Shown: piece by piece, positions 6,552-16,211 of the stretch
Position numbering within the stretch: position 1 is the first letter of the stretch
Layout of the letters: each line of letters begins with the position of its first letter
From: a virus
IMG/VR virus record: IMGVR_UViG_3300037587_000108
Coordinates: 1-20,342 of that record
Reading direction: 5' to 3' (one strand)
DNA: 20,342 bases
The notes under the pieces: generated by a model
The model's input: the letters and a program-made list of their open reading frames with translations, nothing else
What the model was told of the DNA's origin: nothing
Databases searched by the model: none
Translations under genes and position numbers: made by a program

Positions 6552-7475
6552 TTACACGCCAGCTGTACCGTAAGCGCCGCGTGGATCGCTCCAGCCATAG
6601 CTTTCGCGATAGTCAGCCTTGAAACGAGCATTGGAAGTACCAAAGTCGTTGTCTTGCTCGAAACGAACCTCTTGACGAAGCTTATGCCCCATGCCGTCAG
6701 GCGCATTGGTCTTGATAAACCAGGCAGTATCAGAGGTCAGATAGTTATTAACCATGTGACCAGCAGGCAGCATTCCGGTGGACCGGAGTGCGTTCACTGC
6801 GTTATTGCCTGTGTCATTTTGAAGTACCGAATTAAGCACTCGTTCGGCTTCAAATCCCAACTTAGGCGGAACGATCAGCCGCTCACCACGAAGGGCGATA
6901 CGCAGACCTCGGGGGTCGGTAGCCTCGTTGATGACGATCAGCAGATCCTCAAGCGCAGTCTCACTAAACGCAGCCGCAACTGCCAGCTCGTTAGCAAAGG
7001 TTGTGCTATCAGATGGACCATTGACGTGAAGCGAACTAAACAGCTCGGCACCATCGCCGCCAGTCATCAGGAACGCAGAGTTAAAGCCACGGTTATAAAC
7101 GTTGGCCGCAACAACTTCACGGGTTTGAGCCATTGAGAAAGCCAACGCCCGAGCCCGACGAGTAAACAGGTTATAAAGATTGTCCTCCATCGCTTCCCGC
7201 GTGACGATAAAGCCTTTGGCATACGTCAGGTTGGGAAATTTAGGAGAGAAACCTTCCTGTTGTGAATCATAAGCGACGCCTGCGCCTTCCGTCTTAACAG
7301 GGGCTAGACCGAAACCTTCGAACTGTTGATCTTGCTCGAATGCTTTACTTGATTGCTCAGTATCGAACAACATGGTGCGCTGAATTTGATGCTCTTCATA
7401 CGCTTGCCCGAATACATTTGCAACGCCTTCGACTAAAAGGCGCGAGATATTACCAGTTGTGATTACACCAGCCAT
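6552..7475 (-). CDS. Major capsid protein, HK97 fold, Mu gpT-like type
   Basis: A 307-residue protein of the size of Mu gpT-type major head subunits (about 305). The N-terminal region forms a helix (VEGVANVFGQAYEEHQIQRT). Residues 52-76 carry FEGFGLAPVKTEG followed by VAYDSQQEG, and then come YAKGFIVTREAMEDNLY and the long helix LFTRRARALAFSMAQTREVV, as in this family. The central part (TDPRGLRIALRGERLIVPP) and the Tyr/Trp-rich end (DYRESYGWSDPRGAYG) also fit. It forms the icosahedral shell on the scaffold. AAGGAG lies before the ATG. The gene is directly downstream of the cement gene. No protease domain is fused, and no head protease gene was seen in the window. Confidence 0.88.
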   Translation of the reverse strand: MAGVITTGNISRLLVEGVANVFGQAYEEHQIQRTMLFDTEQSSKAFEQDQQFEGFGLAPVKTEGAGVAYDSQQEGFSPKFPNLTYAKGFIVTREAMEDNLYNLFTRRARALAFSMAQTREVVAANVYNRGFNSAFLMTGGDGAELFSSLHVNGPSDSTTFANELAVAAAFSETALEDLLIVINEATDPRGLRIALRGERLIVPPKLGFEAERVLNSVLQNDTGNNAVNALRSTGMLPAGHMVNNYLTSDTAWFIKTNAPDGMGHKLRQEVRFEQDNDFGTSNARFKADYRESYGWSDPRGAYGTAGV

Positions 7476-7485
7476 GATCTGCTCC

Positions 7486-8055
7486 TTATACGCCTACAGC
7501 GCCGTTGATGGTGGATTCGTTGATACGCACAATCAGAGTGGTACCTGCGGCGGCAGGGAAAGTAATATCCCCTGAGTCTTTAACACCAACAACCCGAACC
7601 TGCTCAGTAGTAGAAGCAGCATTACCGGTAGTGTTTACGACCATGTTTGAATTAACCAGACCACCGGTAGCAGTTGCAGCAGTGACAGTTACAGGAAGGT
7701 TACCGCCCACGTCAGTCAGTGCGAAAGTGCCGCCAAGGGTTTCAGCTTCATAAAGAGTGGCTGGGTCAACATTGACCTTAACGAAACCGGCAGTTGATGC
7801 AGGTAGTCCGCGTTGTTCTAGGTCAGAAATGTTTGTATCGATCGAGATAATGGAGCCGGTAATCAGATTACCAGTACCAGCAGTGATCGCATCGACTTCA
7901 GAGATACCTGTTGTAGCGTCTAGGTTACCTGTCTCAACGACATAATCACCTACTGACAACAGAGTTGCGTGCGCCGCGTCAACCGCGAACGTTTGGACCT
8001 TACCAGTGTAACTCCCACCGGACTGGTCCTGAATAGGCCTGAATCCACCAGCCAT
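7486..8055 (-). CDS. Probable head cement / decoration protein
   Basis: I place the start at ATG 8055, giving 189 residues beginning MAGGFRPIQDQSGGSYTGKV. GAGG lies 9 bases before it, while the longer reading from 8103 would add a hydrophobic leader lying over a hairpin and a T-rich run. The product is small, beta-rich and rich in Thr/Val/Gly, with no Cys, and is encoded directly upstream of the capsid gene. Small beta-barrel cement proteins commonly occupy this place. The repeated Thr/Ala/Gly strands (VTVTAATATGG, VVNTTGNAAS) fit such a fold. A cement role is inferred from order, size and composition, not from a diagnostic motif. Confidence 0.7.
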   Translation of the reverse strand: MAGGFRPIQDQSGGSYTGKVQTFAVDAAHATLLSVGDYVVETGNLDATTGISEVDAITAGTGNLITGSIISIDTNISDLEQRGLPASTAGFVKVNVDPATLYEAETLGGTFALTDVGGNLPVTVTAATATGGLVNSNMVVNTTGNAASTTEQVRVVGVKDSGDITFPAAAGTTLIVRINESTINGAVGV

Positions 8056-8080
8056 AATAGAATCCTCAAATTGAGTAATC

Positions 8081-8101
8081 AAAAATAAGCCCACAATGGG
8101 C
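8081..8101 (-). terminator. Terminator-like hairpin before cement and capsid genes
   Basis: The minus strand reads GCCCA-UUG-UGGGC (8101-8089) followed by UUAUUUUU (8088-8081), the layout of a small intrinsic terminator. The stem has only 5 bp. It ends 26 bases before the cement start with no room for a full promoter after it. It may be a leaky terminator or attenuator that tunes capsid transcription, or simply part of a structured leader. Confidence 0.45.
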
Positions 8102-8111
8102 AAACGTTTAA

Positions 8112-8147
8112 CTAATCAATCGGGACATCTATCCTGGTATTGATTAG
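8112..8147 (-). repeat. 9-bp perfect inverted repeat
   Basis: CTAATCAAT at 8112-8120 is the exact reverse complement of ATTGATTAG at 8139-8147, with an 18-base spacer that can add a 3-bp inner pairing (8123-8125 with 8132-8134). It could be an RNA hairpin in the capsid leader or a dyad operator. Placement in a transcribed leader favours RNA. Confidence 0.6.
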
Positions 8148-8235
8148 GGGCTGAGTGCATCTACATCTCAACCACTAAATATGCTGTTTGTTGAAGGCTT
8201 CGTCTCCGGCCACCTAGCAAGCCTCGTCCGGTCTT

Positions 8236-8272
8236 CGACTTAAGCACACTTATCTGAAATGCACTTAAGTCG
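8236..8272 (-). repeat. Long hairpin downstream of the ribozyme
   Basis: Minus-strand RNA pairs CGACUUAAG (8272-8264) with CUUAAGUCG (8244-8236), 9 perfect pairs. The pairing continues inward as UGCAUUU with AAGUGUG, including three G-U pairs, to make a 16-pair stem closed by a 5-base loop (CAGAU). It lies 38 bases downstream of the stem I 3' strand, so after cleavage it would sit near the new 5' end of the capsid mRNA and could protect it. Confidence 0.65.
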
Positions 8273-8310
8273 GTGGCTTGCTTTTGTCCTATTCACAACC
8301 TTCTAATAGG

Positions 8311-8361
8311 CCTAAGAGACACCTTTCGGCGTTTCGTCCCTGCGGACTCATCAGTCTTAGG
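8311..8361 (-). ncRNA. Type I hammerhead self-cleaving ribozyme
   Basis: The minus strand carries the complete hammerhead core. Stem I is CCUAAGA (8361-8355) with UCUUAGG (8317-8311), 7 perfect pairs. Then come CUGAUGA (8354-8348), stem II GUCC/GGAC (8347-8344 with 8339-8336) with loop GCAG, GAA (8335-8333), and stem III ACGCC/GGUGU (8332-8328 with 8323-8319) with GNRA loop GAAA. C at 8318 is the cleavage base in a classic GUC triplet. The predicted cut is between 8318 and 8317. Stems II and III are closed and stem I is open, which makes it type I. The catalytic G8 and G12 positions are present. It is co-oriented with the late genes and would split the late transcript between scaffold-side and capsid-side genes. 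Confidence 0.93.
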
Positions 8362-8458
8362 AGTAGCGGGAAGAGATAGCGATTCTCTATTTAATACAGC
8401 TCGTCCTGTACCCGCATGTGCGTATTCTATATCAGAAAACGATATAAAACACTATTCC

Positions 8459-8872
8459 TTAAATGATGTCGCGCTCCACAACGCTCTTCTGCCCTAACGG
8501 TACGTATTCCGAGTCGCCCAAAGCTTGAATATTCCCCTGAGTCGCATCGATGTTCCGCGCCTGCTGTGCATCCATATCCTCATCATAATACTTTTGCTCG
8601 ATACGCATCAGAACGTGCATATTACCTTTCCCGGCAGGTTGCTCGACTTTCTCACCGTCATGCCATACGAATTCCCACCAAGCTCGTTCCATCTGCCCTA
8701 ATTTGCCTGGGTGATCCGGCCCTGTAATAGCCCAATAGTATTTATATCCTTCCACTTTCAATGAATCAGGTACAGACAGTTTATTACCTGATCCCATTGG
8801 CACGCGATTGGGTCGGGCTGAGTTGCGTTCGCCATCACGGTTAGGCGTACGTGGCTTTGGTCCTGGCTTCAT
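8459..8872 (-). CDS. Conserved phage protein between scaffold and capsid genes
   Basis: A 137-residue protein. The basic N-terminus (MKPGPKPRTPNRDGERNSAR) is followed by a conserved-looking core, VPDSLKVEGYKYYWAITG, then QMERAWWEFVWHD and VLMRIEQKYYDEDMDAQQ. The aromatic, charged core and the lack of membrane or signal segments suggest a cytoplasmic or virion protein. It resembles uncharacterised proteins found with scaffold and capsid genes in podoviruses. ATG follows GAGG and overlaps the stop of the scaffold gene by one base. It is the last gene before the ribozyme gap, so its mRNA would lie at the 3' end of the cleaved upstream fragment. Confidence 0.7.
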   Translation of the reverse strand: MKPGPKPRTPNRDGERNSARPNRVPMGSGNKLSVPDSLKVEGYKYYWAITGPDHPGKLGQMERAWWEFVWHDGEKVEQPAGKGNMHVLMRIEQKYYDEDMDAQQARNIDATQGNIQALGDSEYVPLGQKSVVERDII

Positions 8873-9690
8873 TATGATTTCCTCGCATCTGCAACTGATT
8901 TCAGAAACTGCTTCTCATCTTTGAACATCGACTTACCGAACAGCTCGTATTCGCGTGATTCTTGGGCTGTCAGATCGTTCATCGATAGTTCTTTGCCTGC
9001 CCGTTGTCGTTGGCGCGGCTGTAGGCTCTGCTCAGTCATGGTTGCACTCTCTCTGCGAGGGTTAGTCTGTTGTTGCTGCTCTGGATAAAGCTTGGAGATC
9101 TGGTCATTGACAAAGGCTAACGCCGATTGCGTGGTTGCTCCTGGCTTAGCTGCTGCTTGGCTAAAGAACATCTGCGCTTGTGATGCTTTATCGCTGCCGT
9201 CATCGATCCAAGGATTAGCCGCGTTCCAGTCTGCAATGGTTGGATCGATCTGTGGCGCTACCGGCTCAACTACTGCAGTATTTTCAATCTGCGTCTGTAG
9301 CTGGTCATACTTGACTGTATCGGCTTCCTCTACTGCCTGCCTTTGCTGAGCCTTCAGGTCGTTAATAGCCGCTGCCTGCTGGGCTGAGTGCAGCTTATTC
9401 AGGCTAGCAATACGGCTATCCATGTCGCTCTGTGCGCGGCGTGTCTCTGCCTTGGCATCACGTACCTGGGTCTGCATCTCGCCGTACAGGTTATATTCGC
9501 CTGCTGTCTTCCAGTTCTCAGCCTTACCGTCAAACTGATCCTCTGGCCTCCAGCCATCATCCCACGCCTTTTGCTCTGCTGGTGATAGATCGGGTTGCCC
9601 CTCTTGCTGATTATCAATCAACTGCTCGACATTATCAGGCAGCTCTTCGTTACCAGCGCCTAGCGCCTCTGCAATCTGTTCTTCAGACAT
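8872..9690 (-). CDS. Probable head scaffolding protein
   Basis: I choose ATG 9690 (MSEEQIAEALG), which has AAGGGG before it; the upstream extension to 9759 lies over the previous gene. The product has 272 residues (P22 gp8 has about 300). It is acidic, Gln/Ala-rich and mostly helical. An early motif, SPAEQKAWDDGWRPEDQF near residues 38-55, recurs in phage scaffold proteins. A long coiled-coil-like stretch (about 75-145) and a Gln-rich linker follow, and the end is basic and helical (FKDEKQFLKSVADARKS), as expected for a capsid-binding tail. It lies upstream of the capsid gene. Scaffold identity is well supported by order and composition, though there is no catalytic signature to confirm it. 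Confidence 0.75.
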   Translation of the reverse strand: MSEEQIAEALGAGNEELPDNVEQLIDNQQEGQPDLSPAEQKAWDDGWRPEDQFDGKAENWKTAGEYNLYGEMQTQVRDAKAETRRAQSDMDSRIASLNKLHSAQQAAAINDLKAQQRQAVEEADTVKYDQLQTQIENTAVVEPVAPQIDPTIADWNAANPWIDDGSDKASQAQMFFSQAAAKPGATTQSALAFVNDQISKLYPEQQQQTNPRRESATMTEQSLQPRQRQRAGKELSMNDLTAQESREYELFGKSMFKDEKQFLKSVADARKS

Positions 9691-9880
9691 TATCAACCCC
9701 TTCTTTGGTTGTGAATTGTAGTAATTCAATATCGCAATCGTCGCTCTCAGGGAAGCCACGCATTGCTAGAGCTTCTTTTACGACCTGTGTGACTTCCTCA
9801 CACCCTGATTGTCCTTTCAATCCATCCCAAAAGTCATCTGAGGCTTCTCTAATTTGCACTACGAAAGTGTAAGCTTTCAT
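9683..9880 (-). CDS. Small phage protein, 65 residues
   Basis: The product begins MKAYTFVVQIREASDDFWDG and ends acidic. An alpha/beta pattern (YTFVVQIRE strand, CEEVTQVVKEALAMRG helix, DIELLQFTT strand) suggests a compact small domain. Its ATG overlaps the upstream TGA (ATGA) behind a GGAGGATGACAC site, and its end overlaps the scaffold start by 8 bases, so it is coupled to both. Function unknown. Similar folds occur in small regulatory proteins, but no specific family is recognised. Confidence 0.65.
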   Translation of the reverse strand: MKAYTFVVQIREASDDFWDGLKGQSGCEEVTQVVKEALAMRGFPESDDCDIELLQFTTKEGVDNV

Positions 9881-9892
9881 GTGTCATCCTCC
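9876..9892. repeat. 17-bp junction repeat, copy 1
   Basis: The plus-strand string ttcatgtgtcatcctcc recurs exactly at 10085-10101. On the coding strand it contains the last codons of one gene (EDDT), its stop, the Shine-Dalgarno GGAGG and the next ATG. Confidence 0.85.
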
Positions 9893-10089
9893 AGCTTTAA
9901 TGAAAGCTCGCTTCTTTTGATCGCGACTCTCGCTTCGCTGATTAAGCTCTCGCATGCAATCACCATCGGGGTCGTATTAGTCATAAACGCCATGCCTTTT
10001 GCATCTTTAAGCCTGGTGATCTCGATCAATACGTTTTCTATAATCCTGCCCCATTCATAAGCCTTTTTATCGAACTCATCCAGGTTCAT
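9877..10089 (-). CDS. Small helical phage protein, 70 residues
   Basis: The product begins MNLDEFDKKAYEWGRIIENV and is helical throughout, with two likely helices (DEFDKKAYEWGRIIENVLIE and CESLISEARVAIKRSELSL) and the C-terminus KLEDDT. No known motif was seen. ATG is preceded by the same GGAGGATGACAC cassette as the next gene and overlaps the upstream stop. Placement between the co-chaperonin and the scaffold hints at an accessory assembly role, but nothing in the sequence proves it. Confidence 0.6.
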   Translation of the reverse strand: MNLDEFDKKAYEWGRIIENVLIEITRLKDAKGMAFMTNTTPMVIACESLISEARVAIKRSELSLKLEDDT

Positions 10090-10101
10090 GTGTCATCCTC
10101 C
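10085..10101. repeat. 17-bp junction repeat, copy 2
   Basis: Exact second copy of the string at 9876-9892, again spanning an EDDT-stop/Shine-Dalgarno/ATG gene junction. A diverged version (ccattgttatcctcca) lies at the 10337 start. Confidence 0.85.
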
Positions 10102-10337
10102 TGCGGATGTTTGGAAAAGTAGAGATTAATCGCGCCTTGTAGTGCGATCATTAACTGCTCATCTGTCTTGCAAGAATGTCGCGCCCGAATCTGCAGCCCT
10201 TCTTCGCACTCAGCCAGAGAGATACCGACAAAGACATTTGCCCCTGTTGATTCATAGTCAACCTTGCACTCGGAAAGGATGCCATCGATATCAGTAGAGC
10301 ATTCTGCAAAACTGATATCATCAATCAGGCTTTCCAT
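10086..10337 (-). CDS. Small acidic phage protein, 83 residues
   Basis: Acidic protein beginning MESLIDDISFAECSTDIDGI, with four Cys at about 13, 24, 44 and 56, too widely spaced for an obvious metal site. The C-terminal helix has EQLMIALQGAINLYFSK and the end is QEDDT. Its start lies inside the GroES-like gene's end, where GGAGGATAAC serves as both coding sequence and Shine-Dalgarno. Function unknown. Confidence 0.6.
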   Translation of the reverse strand: MESLIDDISFAECSTDIDGILSECKVDYESTGANVFVGISLAECEEGLQIRARHSCKTDEQLMIALQGAINLYFSKHPQEDDT

Positions 10338-10719
10338 TGTTATCCTCCAACTGCTGCTGCAGCATGGTTAGAAAATCTCCGTTAGCTAGCCCCATAATGT
10401 CCTGGTCGCTCACGTATCGGTAATTTTCAAACTGTTTGTTGTACTCATGCGCCCGAGTAAACTTGCCATCGTATCGGGTTGATAGCTCGACCAGATCGCC
10501 CTCTTTAACGCCCCAATCTTTAGGAGACTCACAACCGGCATAGCCCTTATACGCTGTAGGGCCAAACGCAATGATGCGGGCAATATCACGCCCTTTACGC
10601 TCACGCTCTACCTCTGCCTCAGATGAAGCAAGAATAATTCCCCCGCTTGATTGGATCTGTACTGGGATTATTTCTACCAGCACGTTATAGCCGAGTGGCA
10701 ATACAGGTGGGTTATTCAT
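10321..10719 (-). CDS. GroES-like co-chaperonin (Cpn10 family)
   Basis: A 132-residue protein (host GroES is about 97). Residues 7-31 (LPLGYNVLVEIIPVQIQSSG then GIILA) match the GroES N-terminal strand and mobile loop. GGIIL corresponds to the GroEL-binding GGIVL motif. VIAFGP-like (IIAFGPTAYKG, 49-59), VKEGDLVELSTRYDGK (71-86) and YVSDQDIMGLA (102-112) follow in family order. An insert of about 15 residues (SPKDWG region) and a C-terminal Gln-rich extension lengthen it. Phage co-chaperonins such as T4 gp31 replace GroES to fold capsid proteins, so helping fold the capsid protein in this window is a reasonable inference. AAGGGG lies before its ATG. Confidence 0.85.
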   Translation of the reverse strand: MNNPPVLPLGYNVLVEIIPVQIQSSGGIILASSEAEVERERKGRDIARIIAFGPTAYKGYAGCESPKDWGVKEGDLVELSTRYDGKFTRAHEYNKQFENYRYVSDQDIMGLANGDFLTMLQQQLEDNNGKPD

Positions 10720-10891
10720 CGGACGCCCCTTTAATCTTCACAACACTTGATGGGTTGTCGAATGAAGCCACTAACTCGGGGGGGTCAACCTCCAGGTGGA
10801 AAAGCGCTTGATGATCTTGCGTATAATCGAACCAGTCCGACTCAACATGGTTGATCATTCCACGGTTTGTAACAATCTCATACTTATTCAT
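10712..10891 (-). CDS. 59-residue phage protein upstream of co-chaperonin
   Basis: ATG at 10891 overlaps the TAA of the preceding gene (TAATG) behind GAGGAGG. The frame ends at TAA 10714-10712, overlapping the GroES-like start by 8 bases. The product begins MNKYEIVTNRGMINHVESDW and has a central HLEVDPPELVASFDN and basic-acidic end KIKGASDE. The beta-rich pattern, strong Shine-Dalgarno and tight coupling support translation. No function can be assigned. Confidence 0.65.
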   Translation of the reverse strand: MNKYEIVTNRGMINHVESDWFDYTQDHQALFHLEVDPPELVASFDNPSSVVKIKGASDE

Positions 10892-11112
10892 TAATCAGCC
10901 TCCTCTAAGGCATCTTCATAGGCGTTTGACAGGCTCGTTGCCCCATCAATAAAGCCCTCTTTGTACGCTGTTCTAAGCGCCGTCTGATCTACTGTTTCCA
11001 TCATGCTAGATTCTATTCTAGCGCCTTCAACTTCCTCTTTGATCTTACTGAATACTGCCTTGGTTACGGGGTGGCTGTTCCACTCCTGTAGGTCCTGCTT
11101 GGTTAATACCAT
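10891..11112 (-). CDS. Small helical phage protein, 73 residues
   Basis: The product begins MVLTKQDLQEWNSHPVTKAV and is mostly helical. The pattern DLQEWNSHPVTKAVFSKIKEE followed by ALRTAYKEGFIDGATSL looks like a short helical hairpin found in small phage proteins near portal genes. GGAGG lies before its ATG. It is acidic at the C-terminus (DALEEAD) and overlaps the next start. Function unknown; a structural accessory role is possible. Confidence 0.65.
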   Translation of the reverse strand: MVLTKQDLQEWNSHPVTKAVFSKIKEEVEGARIESSMMETVDQTALRTAYKEGFIDGATSLSNAYEDALEEAD

Positions 11113-11129
11113 TGCTTAGCCTCCTGCGG

Positions 11130-11489
11130 CTATTTGTGGTGCAACGAACACCTGAACGTTGCGGTTAGTTTATCTTTTTGTATCTCAATAGTCGGGGCCT
11201 GGCGCCAATGTATCTCGATATCCCGATGCTTTATCTCTTCTCCTTCTCGCTTCTGTGCGGTTTTCGATTTTGCTAGAGCATCTACGCAAAAATCTATCTT
11301 GCTCTCTAGCCAAGATATCTCGTTGTCTATCGATGAATCGTCGTCAATCTCAATCATAAAGCCATATGTTTGGTATTGAATATCAAACGAATCGCGCGCT
11401 CCAGCTAGCCCCAGTACAGAGGTTTCATCGGAGAGATAGAATTCCTCTAGCTGCTTATTATGATGTGATATTAGATCCTGTCGGTTCAT
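11130..11489 (-). CDS. Hypothetical phage protein, 119 residues
   Basis: The product begins MNRQDLISHHNKQLEEFYLS. It has an acidic central stretch (MIEIDDDSSIDNEISWLESK), a helix to about residue 85, and a C-terminal beta part (IEIHWRQAPTIEIQKDKLTA). The start overlaps the portal's last 32 bases and has GGAGC before the ATG. No recognised motif. Its position between portal and co-chaperonin genes, with several other small ORFs, suggests a variable accessory cassette. Confidence 0.6.
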   Translation of the reverse strand: MNRQDLISHHNKQLEEFYLSDETSVLGLAGARDSFDIQYQTYGFMIEIDDDSSIDNEISWLESKIDFCVDALAKSKTAQKREGEEIKHRDIEIHWRQAPTIEIQKDKLTATFRCSLHHK

Positions 11490-13650
11490 TCGTCAGCTCC
11501 TGTGGCTGCTGTAATTGCTGCAGAGCCTGCTGGTTTTGCAACTCCTGCTGGTCTAGCTGGAGTGCGGTGGTGTAAATGCTAGTTTGATTCTTGGTGTCTT
11601 CTGTCTCTGCTTCTTCCAGAGTCTTGATAGTCTTCGCTTCGTTTAGGGTTACTTCGGAACTACCCTTGTCTAAATCCATCGCTAGCTTAGCGTCTTCTCG
11701 TGCCTGCTCTCGCTCTTGTGCTTCAGCCTGTGCTTCAGCCTGTGCTGCTGCGATCAGGTCAAGACGTTCCTTCTCTCCCAAAATAAGCTGCTCAAGCTGT
11801 GGATTCTCTGCCAGCAACCGTTGCAAGCGCTCTTCTGGTGCTTCATCTGGGAATACCTCATCGACTACAGTCGAACCAATAGTCTCCAGGAAGTTCTTAT
11901 AGAGAGGCCTTGCATCTATGCCTACTAGAGCAAGCTTGTCAGCTATAGACACCTCTGCATTTGCCATGATGATTCGCTGTGTCTTTGTGGCAATCTCTGG
12001 ATTAGCAACAGGTACAATATCCATGCCGCGAAGGTTAAAGTCCTGTGCGAAGTCAGCCTGCGGGTCGTCAAGGATATCTTGATACTGTTCAGGGTCAACA
12101 AACTTAGCGTTCAGCTCAAACAGCTTGCGAAACTCTGAGGACATAGACCGATAGATACGCTTCACAATAGCGCCTGTACCCTGCATCTGCTCATCGATAA
12201 GGGCTAGGGTGGTGCCTACTGGTGCGTTGGTGCCTAGAGCGCCTTTGAGGTCTGCTGAGGCGGCTAGTTCTTGTGCTGAGCTGATCATGAATTGCATTAG
12301 AGCTAATAGGGTAGGCGACGGCTCTTTGAATGGCAGCGGTTTGATACCGTTCTGCAGATCAATAGCGCTAATGCCGGTCTGCTTCCACTCACCAGGTTTA
12401 AAGCTGCTCGATCCCATCTTCTTACGGAATCCGCGTGCAACCCACCCGCCTTGAAGGTTAGATAGCGTACCTGCATCAACCAGCTGGTTAGTGGTTGAGT
12501 TAATACCCGATACAATCGCGCTCAATAGGTGTGTATAGCCAACATCAAGGAAGCCGCCTTGTGGATCACGCAGGAAGCCATACTTGGTGATATTGATCTC
12601 TGGGCTTATCCTTACCACTTCACGCTCACCTGATGTCGCTGGTAGCTCACCGCCCTGCATCAGCCGGTCAAGAGTAGATGCGCGGTTGTTTTCCTCGTCC
12701 TTGATCAATACATCCTTTGGCTCAAAACGCGGCATGATCCGAACGATAACGCCGGTCGATTCCTGGAACACGAATGTATAAGGCTCTTCGTACCCATCAC
12801 CGTCTAGATCGAAATAGCCATCTTGCTCAATGAAGCTGGTGAACATGTCCGCTTCTGATTCTTCGTCTGTCTCTTCGTCGCGATCACCGAAACTCAGCTG
12901 AACATCTAACCAAATTCCTTGCCGTTGCTTCTCAATGATCTCGTTCTTGGCGAAGTCGTGGATCTCACTGAACCGACGCAACCTGGTAATTGATGCAGCG
13001 TCTTGGCTAACAGCGAAATTGGGGAAAGTGATCAACTTGGAAGTGTTGCGGCCTAGCTGTGCATCAAAGAATGTCTTCTTGAACACTGTGCCTGTGTATG
13101 GCAGATCATAGATAAGCTTCTCGTGCTCATCTCTCCATTCAGGCATCTCGATGTTAAGCTGCCAGTTCTGGAACTCTGACACTCGCTCACCACGCTCAAA
13201 CTTCTGATCTTGTGGATCATCACCGATAACCTTGGTCTTAAGGATGTCGTAGCTACGCAGCAACTCGGCAGATGCACGATCACTGAACTTAAGCGCGGCC
13301 TTCATCAACTCAGGGGATTTGAAGTTAGCAGCACCATCCCAAGGTGTGTTTTTGGTCTGTGTCTCTTGCTTAACAAGGTCAAGTCCGAAGTCTACCAGTT
13401 CAGCCCAATCATTCATTGAATCCTGATCAGCCTCGAACCCTTCTTTAGCCTGCCGACCTACTGCTAATAGCTGGTCATCAGAGAACATATCAGCGATGTT
13501 AGGCTTAGGCGCAAAGATCACCTGCCCGTCCTGAGCCTGAGACACCAGGAACATATCAGCGAGCAGTTCAACGCCTTCAAGCTCGGTGATGTCGCGCTCT
13601 TCCTCTCCGTCTAGCTCTTGGTCTTCTACATCGCTGCTAATGATTGCCAT
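11458..13650 (-). CDS. Portal protein, P22 gp1-like
   Basis: A 730-residue protein, close to P22 gp1 (725). The acidic N-terminus is followed by the helical clip/wing region containing TPWDGAANFKSPELMKAALK near residue 105 and MPEWRDEHEKLIYDLPYTGT, then a stem-like part. The C-terminal ~130 residues (from about 600) are helical and rich in Gln, Ala and Glu (EAQAEAQEREQAREDAKLAM), suggesting the long barrel seen in P22-type portals. It forms the dodecameric ring through which terminase packages DNA and to which the gp4-like adaptor binds. It follows the terminase block, as expected. ATG is preceded by AGGG. Confidence 0.88.
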   Translation of the reverse strand: MAIISSDVEDQELDGEEERDITELEGVELLADMFLVSQAQDGQVIFAPKPNIADMFSDDQLLAVGRQAKEGFEADQDSMNDWAELVDFGLDLVKQETQTKNTPWDGAANFKSPELMKAALKFSDRASAELLRSYDILKTKVIGDDPQDQKFERGERVSEFQNWQLNIEMPEWRDEHEKLIYDLPYTGTVFKKTFFDAQLGRNTSKLITFPNFAVSQDAASITRLRRFSEIHDFAKNEIIEKQRQGIWLDVQLSFGDRDEETDEESEADMFTSFIEQDGYFDLDGDGYEEPYTFVFQESTGVIVRIMPRFEPKDVLIKDEENNRASTLDRLMQGGELPATSGEREVVRISPEINITKYGFLRDPQGGFLDVGYTHLLSAIVSGINSTTNQLVDAGTLSNLQGGWVARGFRKKMGSSSFKPGEWKQTGISAIDLQNGIKPLPFKEPSPTLLALMQFMISSAQELAASADLKGALGTNAPVGTTLALIDEQMQGTGAIVKRIYRSMSSEFRKLFELNAKFVDPEQYQDILDDPQADFAQDFNLRGMDIVPVANPEIATKTQRIIMANAEVSIADKLALVGIDARPLYKNFLETIGSTVVDEVFPDEAPEERLQRLLAENPQLEQLILGEKERLDLIAAAQAEAQAEAQEREQAREDAKLAMDLDKGSSEVTLNEAKTIKTLEEAETEDTKNQTSIYTTALQLDQQELQNQQALQQLQQPQELTNEPTGSNITS

Positions 13651-13652
13651 TG

Positions 13653-13829
13653 TTATGCCCTGTTAGTGGCCAGTGAGGCCGGTGTTATCCGCATAATTCC
13701 GCGAGTGATAACGCCGCCAATGATACCAGCCTTGTATTTAGTTACCGCGCACTTCTCGCACCGTGGCTTGTTATCACCGCAGCAATACGGCTTGTCTGTT
13801 TTGGTTTGACAGTCCACACAAGTCGCCAT
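13653..13829 (-). CDS. 58-residue Cys-rich zinc-ribbon-like protein
   Basis: I take ATG 13829 (MATCVDCQTK) rather than 13859 because GGTGGTGAT precedes it and the upstream stop lies one base away (TGATATG). Cys occur at residues 4, 7, 16, 17, 24 and 27 as CxxC, CC and CxxC, consistent with a small zinc ribbon. The rest (YKAGIIGGVITRGIMRITPA) is hydrophobic and could be a short amphipathic or membrane-associated segment. Metal binding is inferred from spacing. The function in the phage is unknown; it lies just before the portal gene. Confidence 0.65.
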   Translation of the reverse strand: MATCVDCQTKTDKPYCCGDNKPRCEKCAVTKYKAGIIGGVITRGIMRITPASLATNRA

Positions 13830-13830
13830 A

Positions 13831-14103
13831 TCACCACCCGCCTTCTTCAATGAACTCATTGGCTAGAGCCTTGACGATCAAATGCATATCATCTTCGGTG
13901 TAGTTGTTACACATCTGCTGAGTCTGGAATACTTCACGAAACGGCTCAAGGTCGATGTGGCTCATATCCTCATCTGGGTCGAAACACATCTCAATCCAGC
14001 GGGTCTTTGATGGCTTGTAATCTTTTGGGTCTCCCTCCTCGCCCCCATCGTAACTACGAATATCGCCTTCACTTTTAATCGGTGCTAATCCAAAACCTTC
14101 CAT
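13831..14103 (-). CDS. 90-residue protein with a capsid-like N-terminus
   Basis: ATG at 14103 follows a TGA one base upstream (TGATATG). Residues 2-24 (EGFGLAPIKSEG then YDGGEEG) align without gaps to residues 53-75 of the major capsid protein, with 14 of 23 identical by my count. The remaining ~65 residues are acidic (CFDPDEDMSHIDLEPFREVF) with a helix (DDMHLIVKALANEFIEE) and do not resemble the capsid protein. It may be a capture of capsid sequence or a capsid-interacting mimic. It lies between the terminase ghost and the zinc-ribbon gene. Whether it is expressed is unknown, but the reading frame is intact. Confidence 0.7.
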   Translation of the reverse strand: MEGFGLAPIKSEGDIRSYDGGEEGDPKDYKPSKTRWIEMCFDPDEDMSHIDLEPFREVFQTQQMCNNYTEDDMHLIVKALANEFIEEGGW

Positions 14104-14104
14104 A

Positions 14105-14158
14105 TCAGTACCCCATCACTCCGACCTCTGAGAAGTCGTCTTCGTATTCATCCCAATC
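14105..14158 (-). pseudogene. Ghost copy of the large terminase C-terminus
   Basis: The 17 codons plus TGA read DWDEYEDDFSEVGVMGY. The real terminase end at 14681-14628 reads DWDDEEDDFSEVGVMGY, so 15 of 17 residues agree. At the DNA level about 45 of 58 bases agree including the following TATG, and most codon changes are synonymous. No start codon is in frame, and the preceding gene's stop falls at its edge. It is therefore a remnant of a terminase end, and because it diverges mainly at silent sites it probably came from a separate allele rather than a recent copy. Confidence 0.85.
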
Positions 14159-14417
14159 AATAAGGAGAAAAGTGTGTCCTCATGTCTGAAATCGCCCATA
14201 CGATAGCCACTATACCTGCTAATGCGTACTCACTAGGCAGAAGCCCTAGACCGCAGAATAACATGCCTGCATTGCAAGCAAGAAGAGCACCGTGACCAGG
14301 TATGAACCGCTGCCATAATCCTTTCTTTCGACATGGCTCCATGTTACCGCCGTCTTTTAGCGCCTCTTCCCACTCTTCTTTGCTGAGATTAGGCATACGC
14401 CCAAAGTTTACAGCCAT
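14157..14417 (-). CDS. Small membrane protein, 86 residues
   Basis: I choose ATG 14417 (MAVNFGRMPNLSKEEWEEAL), which has AAGGGA before it; the longer form from 14471 overlaps the upstream gene. The N-terminal half is soluble and charged. Residues ~43-80 contain two closely spaced hydrophobic segments (GALLACNAGMLFCGLGLL and YALAGIVAIVWAIS), with Cys in the first. The C-terminus is short (RTHFSPY). A small integral membrane protein is likely; a holin-like or superinfection-related role is possible but unsupported. Its stop overlaps the terminase ghost, so it belongs to the inserted segment. Confidence 0.6.
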   Translation of the reverse strand: MAVNFGRMPNLSKEEWEEALKDGGNMEPCRKKGLWQRFIPGHGALLACNAGMLFCGLGLLPSEYALAGIVAIVWAISDMRTHFSPY

Positions 14418-14431
14418 ATTAGCATCCCTTG

Positions 14432-14626
14432 TTAGGTAAAGAATTTCGATAGTAACCAGCCAAAAGGCCACCTCAATGTCATCATGTGCTCGCCTAGTAG
14501 CTGCAAACTATGGCGCTTGCATATACTCTTAGCATCATTCCAGTCAGCAGCGCTTATCCTTGTTAGATACCAATCATCGCAATAATAATATTGTACTAGA
14601 TAAGTTCTTGTATTGTCTTTTTTCAT
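14432..14626 (-). CDS. 64-residue protein directly after terminase
   Basis: Its ATG lies one base after the terminase TGA (TGATATG). The product has RTYLVQYYYCDDWYLTRISA followed by DWNDAKSICKRHSLQLLGEH, an alpha/beta arrangement with two strands and a helix that recurs in small uncharacterised phage proteins, and a hydrophobic end (WPFGWLLSKFF). No strong Shine-Dalgarno was found, so it may depend on termination of terminase translation. Function unknown. Confidence 0.6.
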   Translation of the reverse strand: MKKDNTRTYLVQYYYCDDWYLTRISAADWNDAKSICKRHSLQLLGEHMMTLRWPFGWLLSKFFT

Positions 14627-14627
14627 A

Positions 14628-16211
14628 TCAGTAGCCCATCACTCCAACTTCGCTGAAATCATCCTCTTCATCATCCCAGTCATCAGATGAATCGATGACA
14701 TATCCACCGCTGAAACCAAGTGCCATGTATTGTTCAGCGTCTGCGGGGTGAGAGTATTTATTCTTATCCGGCTTATCCCTATACCGCTCTTCACCTGATA
14801 CCTGGACACGCTTGTATTGATAGCCGCCGATCTTGCCTTTACGGAGCATTGGGCACTTGCGACTGACCAGATAACCAGGCTCACCGTCCACCAGCTTGAT
14901 GATGAATGAGTTGACCGCATCGATACGCTTAGTCGGGTCGTTGGTTGGCGCTGGCTCAGTCTCGAAACCTAGGTGGAGTGGCTGGATAATGTCGCCATCT
15001 TCGTTGTCGTCAATGTACTCATCGTTGAGTATACCCATTGCTGATTTTGCTTCTGCCTCTCCGCGTCCCTTGCCTGCTGGGTCAATGTAGGAGAAGGCTA
15101 TCTCTATGCCGTAGAAGTTACGCTGCAGGAACGGCTTGACCACATCCCGCGCAAACTGTCGTACTCCCATATCTTCTGAGGTTAACTCAGCGATAACCCG
15201 AAGCTGTCCGCGTTGTGTCATCTGTCCAATGATGCAGGAGGGCGTTAAGCCACCATCCCAGCCTAATCCTATGGGCAGATCCTCAATCACCCCCAATGGC
15301 TTCTCTGGGCAGTGCAGGCGGTCGTTGTACTGTGGATATACAGGCTTGCCATCCTTGATCGTGCCGTAGTTGCCAAGCACCATGACATTGATATGGTCTT
15401 CAGTGTTACCGGCGATCATGTCCAGGTAGTACTGATAGCCACCTGGTAGAAACTTGATGTTCTCGGCTAATGGGCTGGGCTCATACTCACCATCAGGCTT
15501 TTTGATTAGTGGTGATGGACCGCGTACAAAGTCGAATATCTGCGTCACTGCCTTCTTAGCTTGGCTGCTACTGTTGGATCTAAGGCAGCCCTCTTCTGCT
15601 AGCTGATACCACCAATGGTCATCTTCAGGCGGGTTAGTATCCATCAGTACAGATTTACGCGTGCATGGCTGATAGCTGCCTTGTGCGTCTCTCGGTGCCT
15701 TGTAGTCGCCCTTGTCTGTGTATCCATCGATCTGTGAAGGGTAACGTCCGATACGCTCTCTCGCAGCTTTAAGGACTGCATAAGGCAGTTCTTTAGCCTC
15801 GTTCATGAATACGCCTGTCACCTCAAGCGATAGCAGCTTCTTAACGTCATCAGGTCTATCGAGCGCCAGGAAGATAAACTTACACTGAACCCTGGTGCCA
15901 TCAGGCAGCGGATAGTTCATATCCCCACGCATAGGCTTGAGGGTTATGTCGCATATCTCGTGTGGTATCCACTGCCTAAACGTGGCTAGCGTGGTTGTCT
16001 CAAGCATGTCATAGGTGTTACGGACTACTGCCCACTTTGTGAGCCTGATGCTGTCGCAGTTAGGCTCTTGCAATACTGCTAGCCGGTGCATCTCGTTGAT
16101 ACACGTCACTGACTTGCCGTTTCCGACAGGGCCAAGAAAGCCACGCACAACCTTATCGGATGCGTGGAACTTAGCGCCTGTGGGTGATGCGATGTAGGTT
16201 ACAGTTTTCAA
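14628..16211 (-). CDS. terL: Terminase large subunit (packaging ATPase-nuclease)
   Basis: A 527-residue protein. Walker A is GPVGNGKS at residues 27-34 and the Walker B region is VTGVFMNE at 131-138, with the catalytic Glu at 138. A C-terminal nuclease is suggested by LGWDGGLTPSC, YIDPAGKGRGEAEAKSAM and SHPADAEQYMALG, each with conserved acidic residues. It pumps DNA into the head through the portal and cuts it. The start is TTG at 16211, the only option close before Walker A because a TAA lies in frame just upstream. It overlaps the previous stop (TTGA), and its AAGGAG is only 2 bases away. The acidic C-terminal tail ends FSEVGVMGY and is echoed at 14105-14158. Confidence 0.92.
   Translation of the reverse strand: MKTVTYIASPTGAKFHASDKVVRGFLGPVGNGKSVTCINEMHRLAVLQEPNCDSIRLTKWAVVRNTYDMLETTTLATFRQWIPHEICDITLKPMRGDMNYPLPDGTRVQCKFIFLALDRPDDVKKLLSLEVTGVFMNEAKELPYAVLKAARERIGRYPSQIDGYTDKGDYKAPRDAQGSYQPCTRKSVLMDTNPPEDDHWWYQLAEEGCLRSNSSSQAKKAVTQIFDFVRGPSPLIKKPDGEYEPSPLAENIKFLPGGYQYYLDMIAGNTEDHINVMVLGNYGTIKDGKPVYPQYNDRLHCPEKPLGVIEDLPIGLGWDGGLTPSCIIGQMTQRGQLRVIAELTSEDMGVRQFARDVVKPFLQRNFYGIEIAFSYIDPAGKGRGEAEAKSAMGILNDEYIDDNEDGDIIQPLHLGFETEPAPTNDPTKRIDAVNSFIIKLVDGEPGYLVSRKCPMLRKGKIGGYQYKRVQVSGEERYRDKPDKNKYSHPADAEQYMALGFSGGYVIDSSDDWDDEEDDFSEVGVMGY

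Follow-up and report, generated by a model that had tools for sequence, protein, structure and literature searches.

A peptide resembling a putative capsid E-loop starts a 90-residue phage protein and other, unrelated small proteins

Introduction

The HK97 capsid is cross-linked covalently through a lysine of its E-loop, with asparagine and glutamate partners on the neighbouring subunit. Capsid subunits are also bound by Sid, the capsid size-determination protein of satellite P4, which changes assembly. Virion assembly of invading phages can be blocked by the prophage protein Tab, which acts on the tail (PMC10884400), and bacteria possess sensors that bind newly made capsid protein (PMC9712102, PMC11578894). 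One of these, CapRel, senses both the capsid protein and Gp54, a small protein of Bas11 phages, and the two triggers were called completely unrelated and structurally different (PMC11578894). Our literature searches turned up no account of a small phage protein that bears a piece of capsid sequence. Here, we analyse such a protein in a viral stretch of 20,342 nucleotides (IMG/VR record IMGVR_UViG_3300037587_000108, positions 1 to 20,342; hereafter the window), for which an original prediction from the letters had proposed that a 90-residue protein starts with a near copy of a major capsid segment.

Results

The open reading frame at 13831..14103 (-) is translated into 90 residues starting MEGFGLAPIKSEGDIRSYDGGEEGDPKDY, and its alignment with homologues divides the product into an E-loop-like N-terminal motif, a variable linker and a TRWIEMC domain. 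Residues 2-24 (EGFGLAPIKSEGDIRSYDGGEEG; 14032..14100 (-)) align without gaps with residues 53-75 of the major capsid protein (EGFGLAPVKTEGAGVAYDSQQEG; 7251..7319 (-)), with 14 of 23 residues and 40 of 69 bases identical, and the similarity spans all 23 residues, YD...EG included. When the 90-residue protein was used as the query against the whole record, it matched only itself and this capsid segment (E 5.5e-5). The ungapped BLOSUM62 score was 74. Across 400 shuffled versions each, the small protein reached at most 42 and the capsid at most 39 (extreme-value P of ~1e-7 and ~8e-9, respectively), and the top score among the 31 other genes of the window was 34. The proposed match of 14 in 23 is therefore confirmed and lies far beyond that of shuffled sequences; these scores, together with the ATG-anchored pattern scan below, rule out chance similarity. 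When 80 related capsids are aligned, the similar residues prove to be those at conserved positions. The similarity is limited to the E-loop segment: the spine helix, P-domain and A-domain of the capsid are absent from the 90-residue protein, which has no capsid match in Pfam or PHROGs and whose remainder is, as had been described, unrelated and acidic. A low-confidence model, with residues 1-42 disordered and helices at 53-66 and 70-84, predicts that the motif is disordered.

The capsid gene (6552..7475 (-)) was identified by profile matches (PF25209, E 1.8e-13; phrog_371, E 4.4e-15), a modelled fold and structure matches. The predicted structure adopts the HK97 fold with modest confidence (mean pLDDT 68); HK97 itself is among its top structure matches, and the P4 procapsid with Sid is also among its matches. 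In this model, the matched segment follows the N-terminal strands and precedes strands 79-91 and the long helix 102-130, which places it in the E-loop, in agreement with its original placement near that loop and before the long helix. Across all 157 distinct capsid sequences, neither the Lys nor the Gly of K.EG is ever replaced.

Three homologues of the 90-residue protein, found through terminase relatives (L090 2756-3016, L108 4528-4866 and L123 2391-2684, the last upstream of terL), all retain the motif. The four aligned members keep FGL..[IV][KR].EG....[YF]D and the domain TRWIE[ML]C, with a linker that varies in length and composition. No convincing homologue was found among 50,697 records of isolated phages, one scan of bacterial and archaeal genomes returned a single capsid and nothing else, and the 90-residue protein, its homologues and the other motif proteins tested had no significant match in Pfam, PHROGs or PADLOC.

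The same motif starts other small proteins with different continuations, in L126 (MNGFGLAHIKSEGMCSSYDGAKEW), L114, L279, L119 and L115 and likewise in L142, L227, L262, L244 and L226; in L114 and L279 it is followed by IHPDD. A second motif family, of about 50 residues, carries a WEC.CE.C part (L134, L140, L144, L152, L175, L267 and others). The peptide of the 90-residue protein follows the pattern conserved in the capsid E-loop, GFGLA.[IV]K.EG....YD. An ATG-anchored motif pattern, run over all viral contigs, gave 29 matches, namely 16 capsids of the PF25209/phrog_371 family and 13 small proteins whose C-terminal parts are of several unrelated kinds, in scans that are biased to GFGL-like motifs and over contigs that are mostly fragments of viruses without known hosts. 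There were no chance matches in this collection of ~20 Gb, whose size was estimated from 38 matches to a random 15-base pattern and for which ~0.3 matches were expected by chance. The motif is a single shared and selected feature connecting orphan genes that have no other relationship.

Comparison of the small-protein motif with the window's own capsid revealed differences at 13.5 of 16 synonymous sites and 15.5 of 53 non-synonymous sites. The synonymous sites are nearly saturated, and the motif is therefore not a recent duplication; recent copying of DNA from the capsid gene of the window itself can be rejected. In the second motif family, the motif has a pS of 0.71 and a pN of 0.08, a pattern of purifying selection at the protein level. 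For most small proteins, the capsid of the same phage is not the best match to the motif, and tracking of each phage's own capsid is not supported as a general rule by this comparison. The window is an exception, as its own capsid is the best match and its score over the first 12 residues is exceeded by no other of the 157 distinct capsids. Only one of these 157 capsids, that of L115 (16966-17910), has Phe at motif position 8, and the L115 small protein (7485-7766) has it too, a suggestive single case of a small protein tracking its own capsid. The E-loop Lys, capsid residue 61 (within 7251-7319), is kept in nearly all motif small proteins, and in that of L123 this invariant capsid residue is replaced by Arg. 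The original idea of captured capsid sequence thus holds insofar as the capsid-related sequence on the small protein is real; capture from the own phage is too simple, given the near-saturated synonymous sites, the many unrelated motif proteins and the general lack of own-capsid tracking.

The PF25209/phrog_371 capsid family is encoded by 11 of the 13 motif-protein contigs of at least 19 kb and by 0 of 18 random contigs of at least 19 kb and 0 of 38 random contigs in all, searched with a profile that does match in the carriers (Fisher P 9e-7 for 11/13 versus 0/18, with several of the 11 in one related group and hence fewer independent cases). The other two long carriers show no capsid gene; one is a fragment whose related portal lies only ~3 kb from the contig end, and its capsid gene may therefore be outside the contig. 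Motif small proteins are thus nearly confined to phages with this capsid.

The 90-residue gene lies in a variable cassette bordered upstream by the terminase large subunit gene (terL; 14628..16211 (-)) and downstream by the portal gene (11458..13650 (-)). The cassette also contains two further small open reading frames of 104 and 64 residues (14157..14626 (-)), with relatives in L085 and L120, and, as the next gene, a 68-residue frame with cysteine pairs (13653..13859 (-)). Directly before the 90-residue gene, and including its translation start region, is a second copy of the terL 3' end (14101..14161 (-); codons DWDEYEDDFSEVGVMGY-stop, then TGATATG). In about half of the relatives (L083-L121) terL abuts the portal gene, and in the others ~160-1740 bases of changing small frames lie between them; GGGGTA[CT]TGATATGG repeats, similar to the duplicated terL tail of the window, precede small genes in L001 and L090. 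Because of these variable inserts and the repeated terL tails and start regions, the 90-residue gene is one of a set of exchangeable cassettes at a hypervariable terL-portal junction. Members of the second motif family are found in operons of tiny, probably early genes together with a polymerase-like gene (assigned from sequence), and the motif is therefore not restricted to the block of structural genes. Across otherwise different proteins of such operons (L144 ~8500-13900, L175 ~7500-10700 and L158), the end modules EWVGLTDEEI...KLKEKNT and IRARGQA recur. The window also encodes a Cpn10-type co-chaperonin (10321-10719; PF00166, E 1.7e-5), which presumably serves capsid folding with host GroEL. 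Near the co-chaperonin gene, frames of L120 (9043-9243) and L094 (7868-8098) start with KIEYDSQQQG and KVEYDSQQEG and resemble AYDSQQEG, the latter half of the E-loop segment of the capsid, with weak profile matches.

A search of 40,327 small open reading frames with the capsid profile at E<20 gave 61 matching stretches versus 4 in reversed frames, in a set partly chosen by motif and with one match to a normal but incomplete capsid gene. Among the frames that had not been selected by the motif, the capsid profile matched nine at E<1 versus none in reversed or shuffled frames, the portal profile matched two, and the terminase profile matched only a true terminase piece. The capsid long helix is carried by a frame of L116 (E 1.4e-4), and three stretches in capsid order by one of L115 (E 0.014 together); of eight small frames starting with RR.FL, six contain a stretch resembling the capsid, with a weak resemblance in one case. 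These frames are leads rather than proofs, as most single matches are weak. The twin-arginine-like RR.FL frames are located at L116 2712-2912, L135 1667-1897, L115 8259-8558, L119 1812-2060 and L226 6224-6688 and 6673-6969, and the segments behind their starts resemble the capsid long helix, P-domain, C-terminus and E-loop. Segments like the portal (profile positions ~364-423, E ~0.005) were observed in L089 (977-1294) and L117 (6443-6667). Two candidates in the window were rejected: GGVITRG in 13653-13859, a look-alike of the capsid N-terminus, was unsupported by the profile, and a look-alike of capsid residues 171-209 in 9877-10089 was not significant (E 5.8).

Discussion

The motif opens many small proteins that are otherwise unrelated, and the phages encoding them nearly always have the same capsid type; this suggests a reusable tag whose function concerns the capsid. 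We propose, tentatively and with a probability of roughly 0.38, that the 90-residue protein is an accessory protein in which a disordered linker joins a portable N-terminal peptide to a small C-terminal domain. This peptide would dock at the site used by the capsid E-loop itself, either on adjacent capsid subunits or on an assembly factor engaging the loop, and would thereby deliver the C-terminal part to capsid precursors; alternatively, it might tune or block assembly, either of the phage's own capsids or of those of related competitors in the same cell. A covalent link through the E-loop Lys is conceivable, because HK97 cross-links through a lysine of its E-loop. Docking is favoured because the similarity is far above that of shuffled sequences and falls on positions conserved in capsids, because the motif is kept in all homologues, is under purifying selection and was matched by the ATG-anchored pattern in the capsid family and small proteins only, and because 11 of 13 long carriers, but no random contig of that length, encode the capsid, in whose HK97-fold model the segment takes the E-loop position. 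In addition, a disordered motif followed by a variable linker is what would be expected of a docking peptide. Docking is disfavoured by the fact that the motif mostly does not track its own capsid, by the location of the second family outside the structural block, by the Arg in place of the invariant Lys in L123 and by the two long carriers without a capsid gene.

The main rival is that the protein is a decoy or antagonist of capsid-sensing immunity, in which a host sensor would meet the capsid epitope on the peptide and be occupied or blocked by the C-terminal part. The sensors of newly made capsid protein, such as CapRel, provide a precedent (PMC9712102, PMC11578894), the carriers possess the very capsid that would be sensed, a consensus-like motif independent of the own capsid would suit a generic epitope, and some small frames carry other capsid or portal segments. 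We nevertheless consider a decoy unlikely, as no sensor is known for the E-loop of PF25209 capsids, the motif proteins tested, including the 90-residue one, have no similarity to defence-system models, and a peptide mimicking the trigger might also activate the sensor. Less likely still is a by-product of mosaic recombination, in which a piece of capsid once became the start of a small frame and spread with cassettes, with no capsid-related function. The terL-portal site is indeed a hot spot for cassettes, and the terL tail is duplicated there; the shared end modules of small genes near the second family form an obvious pattern of shuffling; however, a by-product would hardly be expected to show purifying selection with saturated synonymous sites, to be kept on several unrelated C-terminal parts in different gene settings and in all homologues, or to be linked to one capsid family. 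The least probable of these readings, and an improbable one, is resemblance through common constraint and not descent: the capsid and the small proteins would each use a short motif to bind a third partner, for instance a host protein or the co-chaperonin of the phage. The core motif is short and occurs on unrelated backgrounds, and the window does encode a Cpn10-type candidate partner, but the 23 residues of similarity in the window family, YD...EG included, are more than a short motif needs.

A broader and doubtful reading is that phages of the PF25209 capsid family keep a repertoire of small proteins that display virion segments as baits, decoys or assembly poisons. The displayed segments would be chiefly the capsid E-loop and also spine-helix, P-domain, C-terminal and portal segments, some of them behind twin-arginine-like starts; if so, these proteins would constitute a class not described before. 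If, as we prefer, the motif is a docking tag for the E-loop site, it would allow accessory proteins directed at the capsid to be recognised by sequence among unannotated phage genes, and it would provide a short, defined peptide for testing the control of capsid assembly and the bacterial sensing of the E-loop.

Among known systems, Sid of P4 resembles the 90-residue protein in the docking reading, as an accessory protein that binds capsid subunits; to our knowledge, Sid is not built on a copy of the capsid E-loop. Tab, compared by description only, is similarly a small phage-encoded protein acting on virion assembly, which is one reading of the motif proteins, but it acts on the tail and has not been described with a capsid segment. 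Gp54 and the capsid of one phage act on the same partner, CapRel, whereas here no sensor is known and the small protein shares sequence with the capsid. With the E-loop of the PF25209/phrog_371 capsid itself, the 90-residue protein shares a 23-residue pattern with the invariant K.EG, in the same phages, and it differs from that capsid in having the loop segment only, placed at the N-terminus of an unrelated acidic domain.
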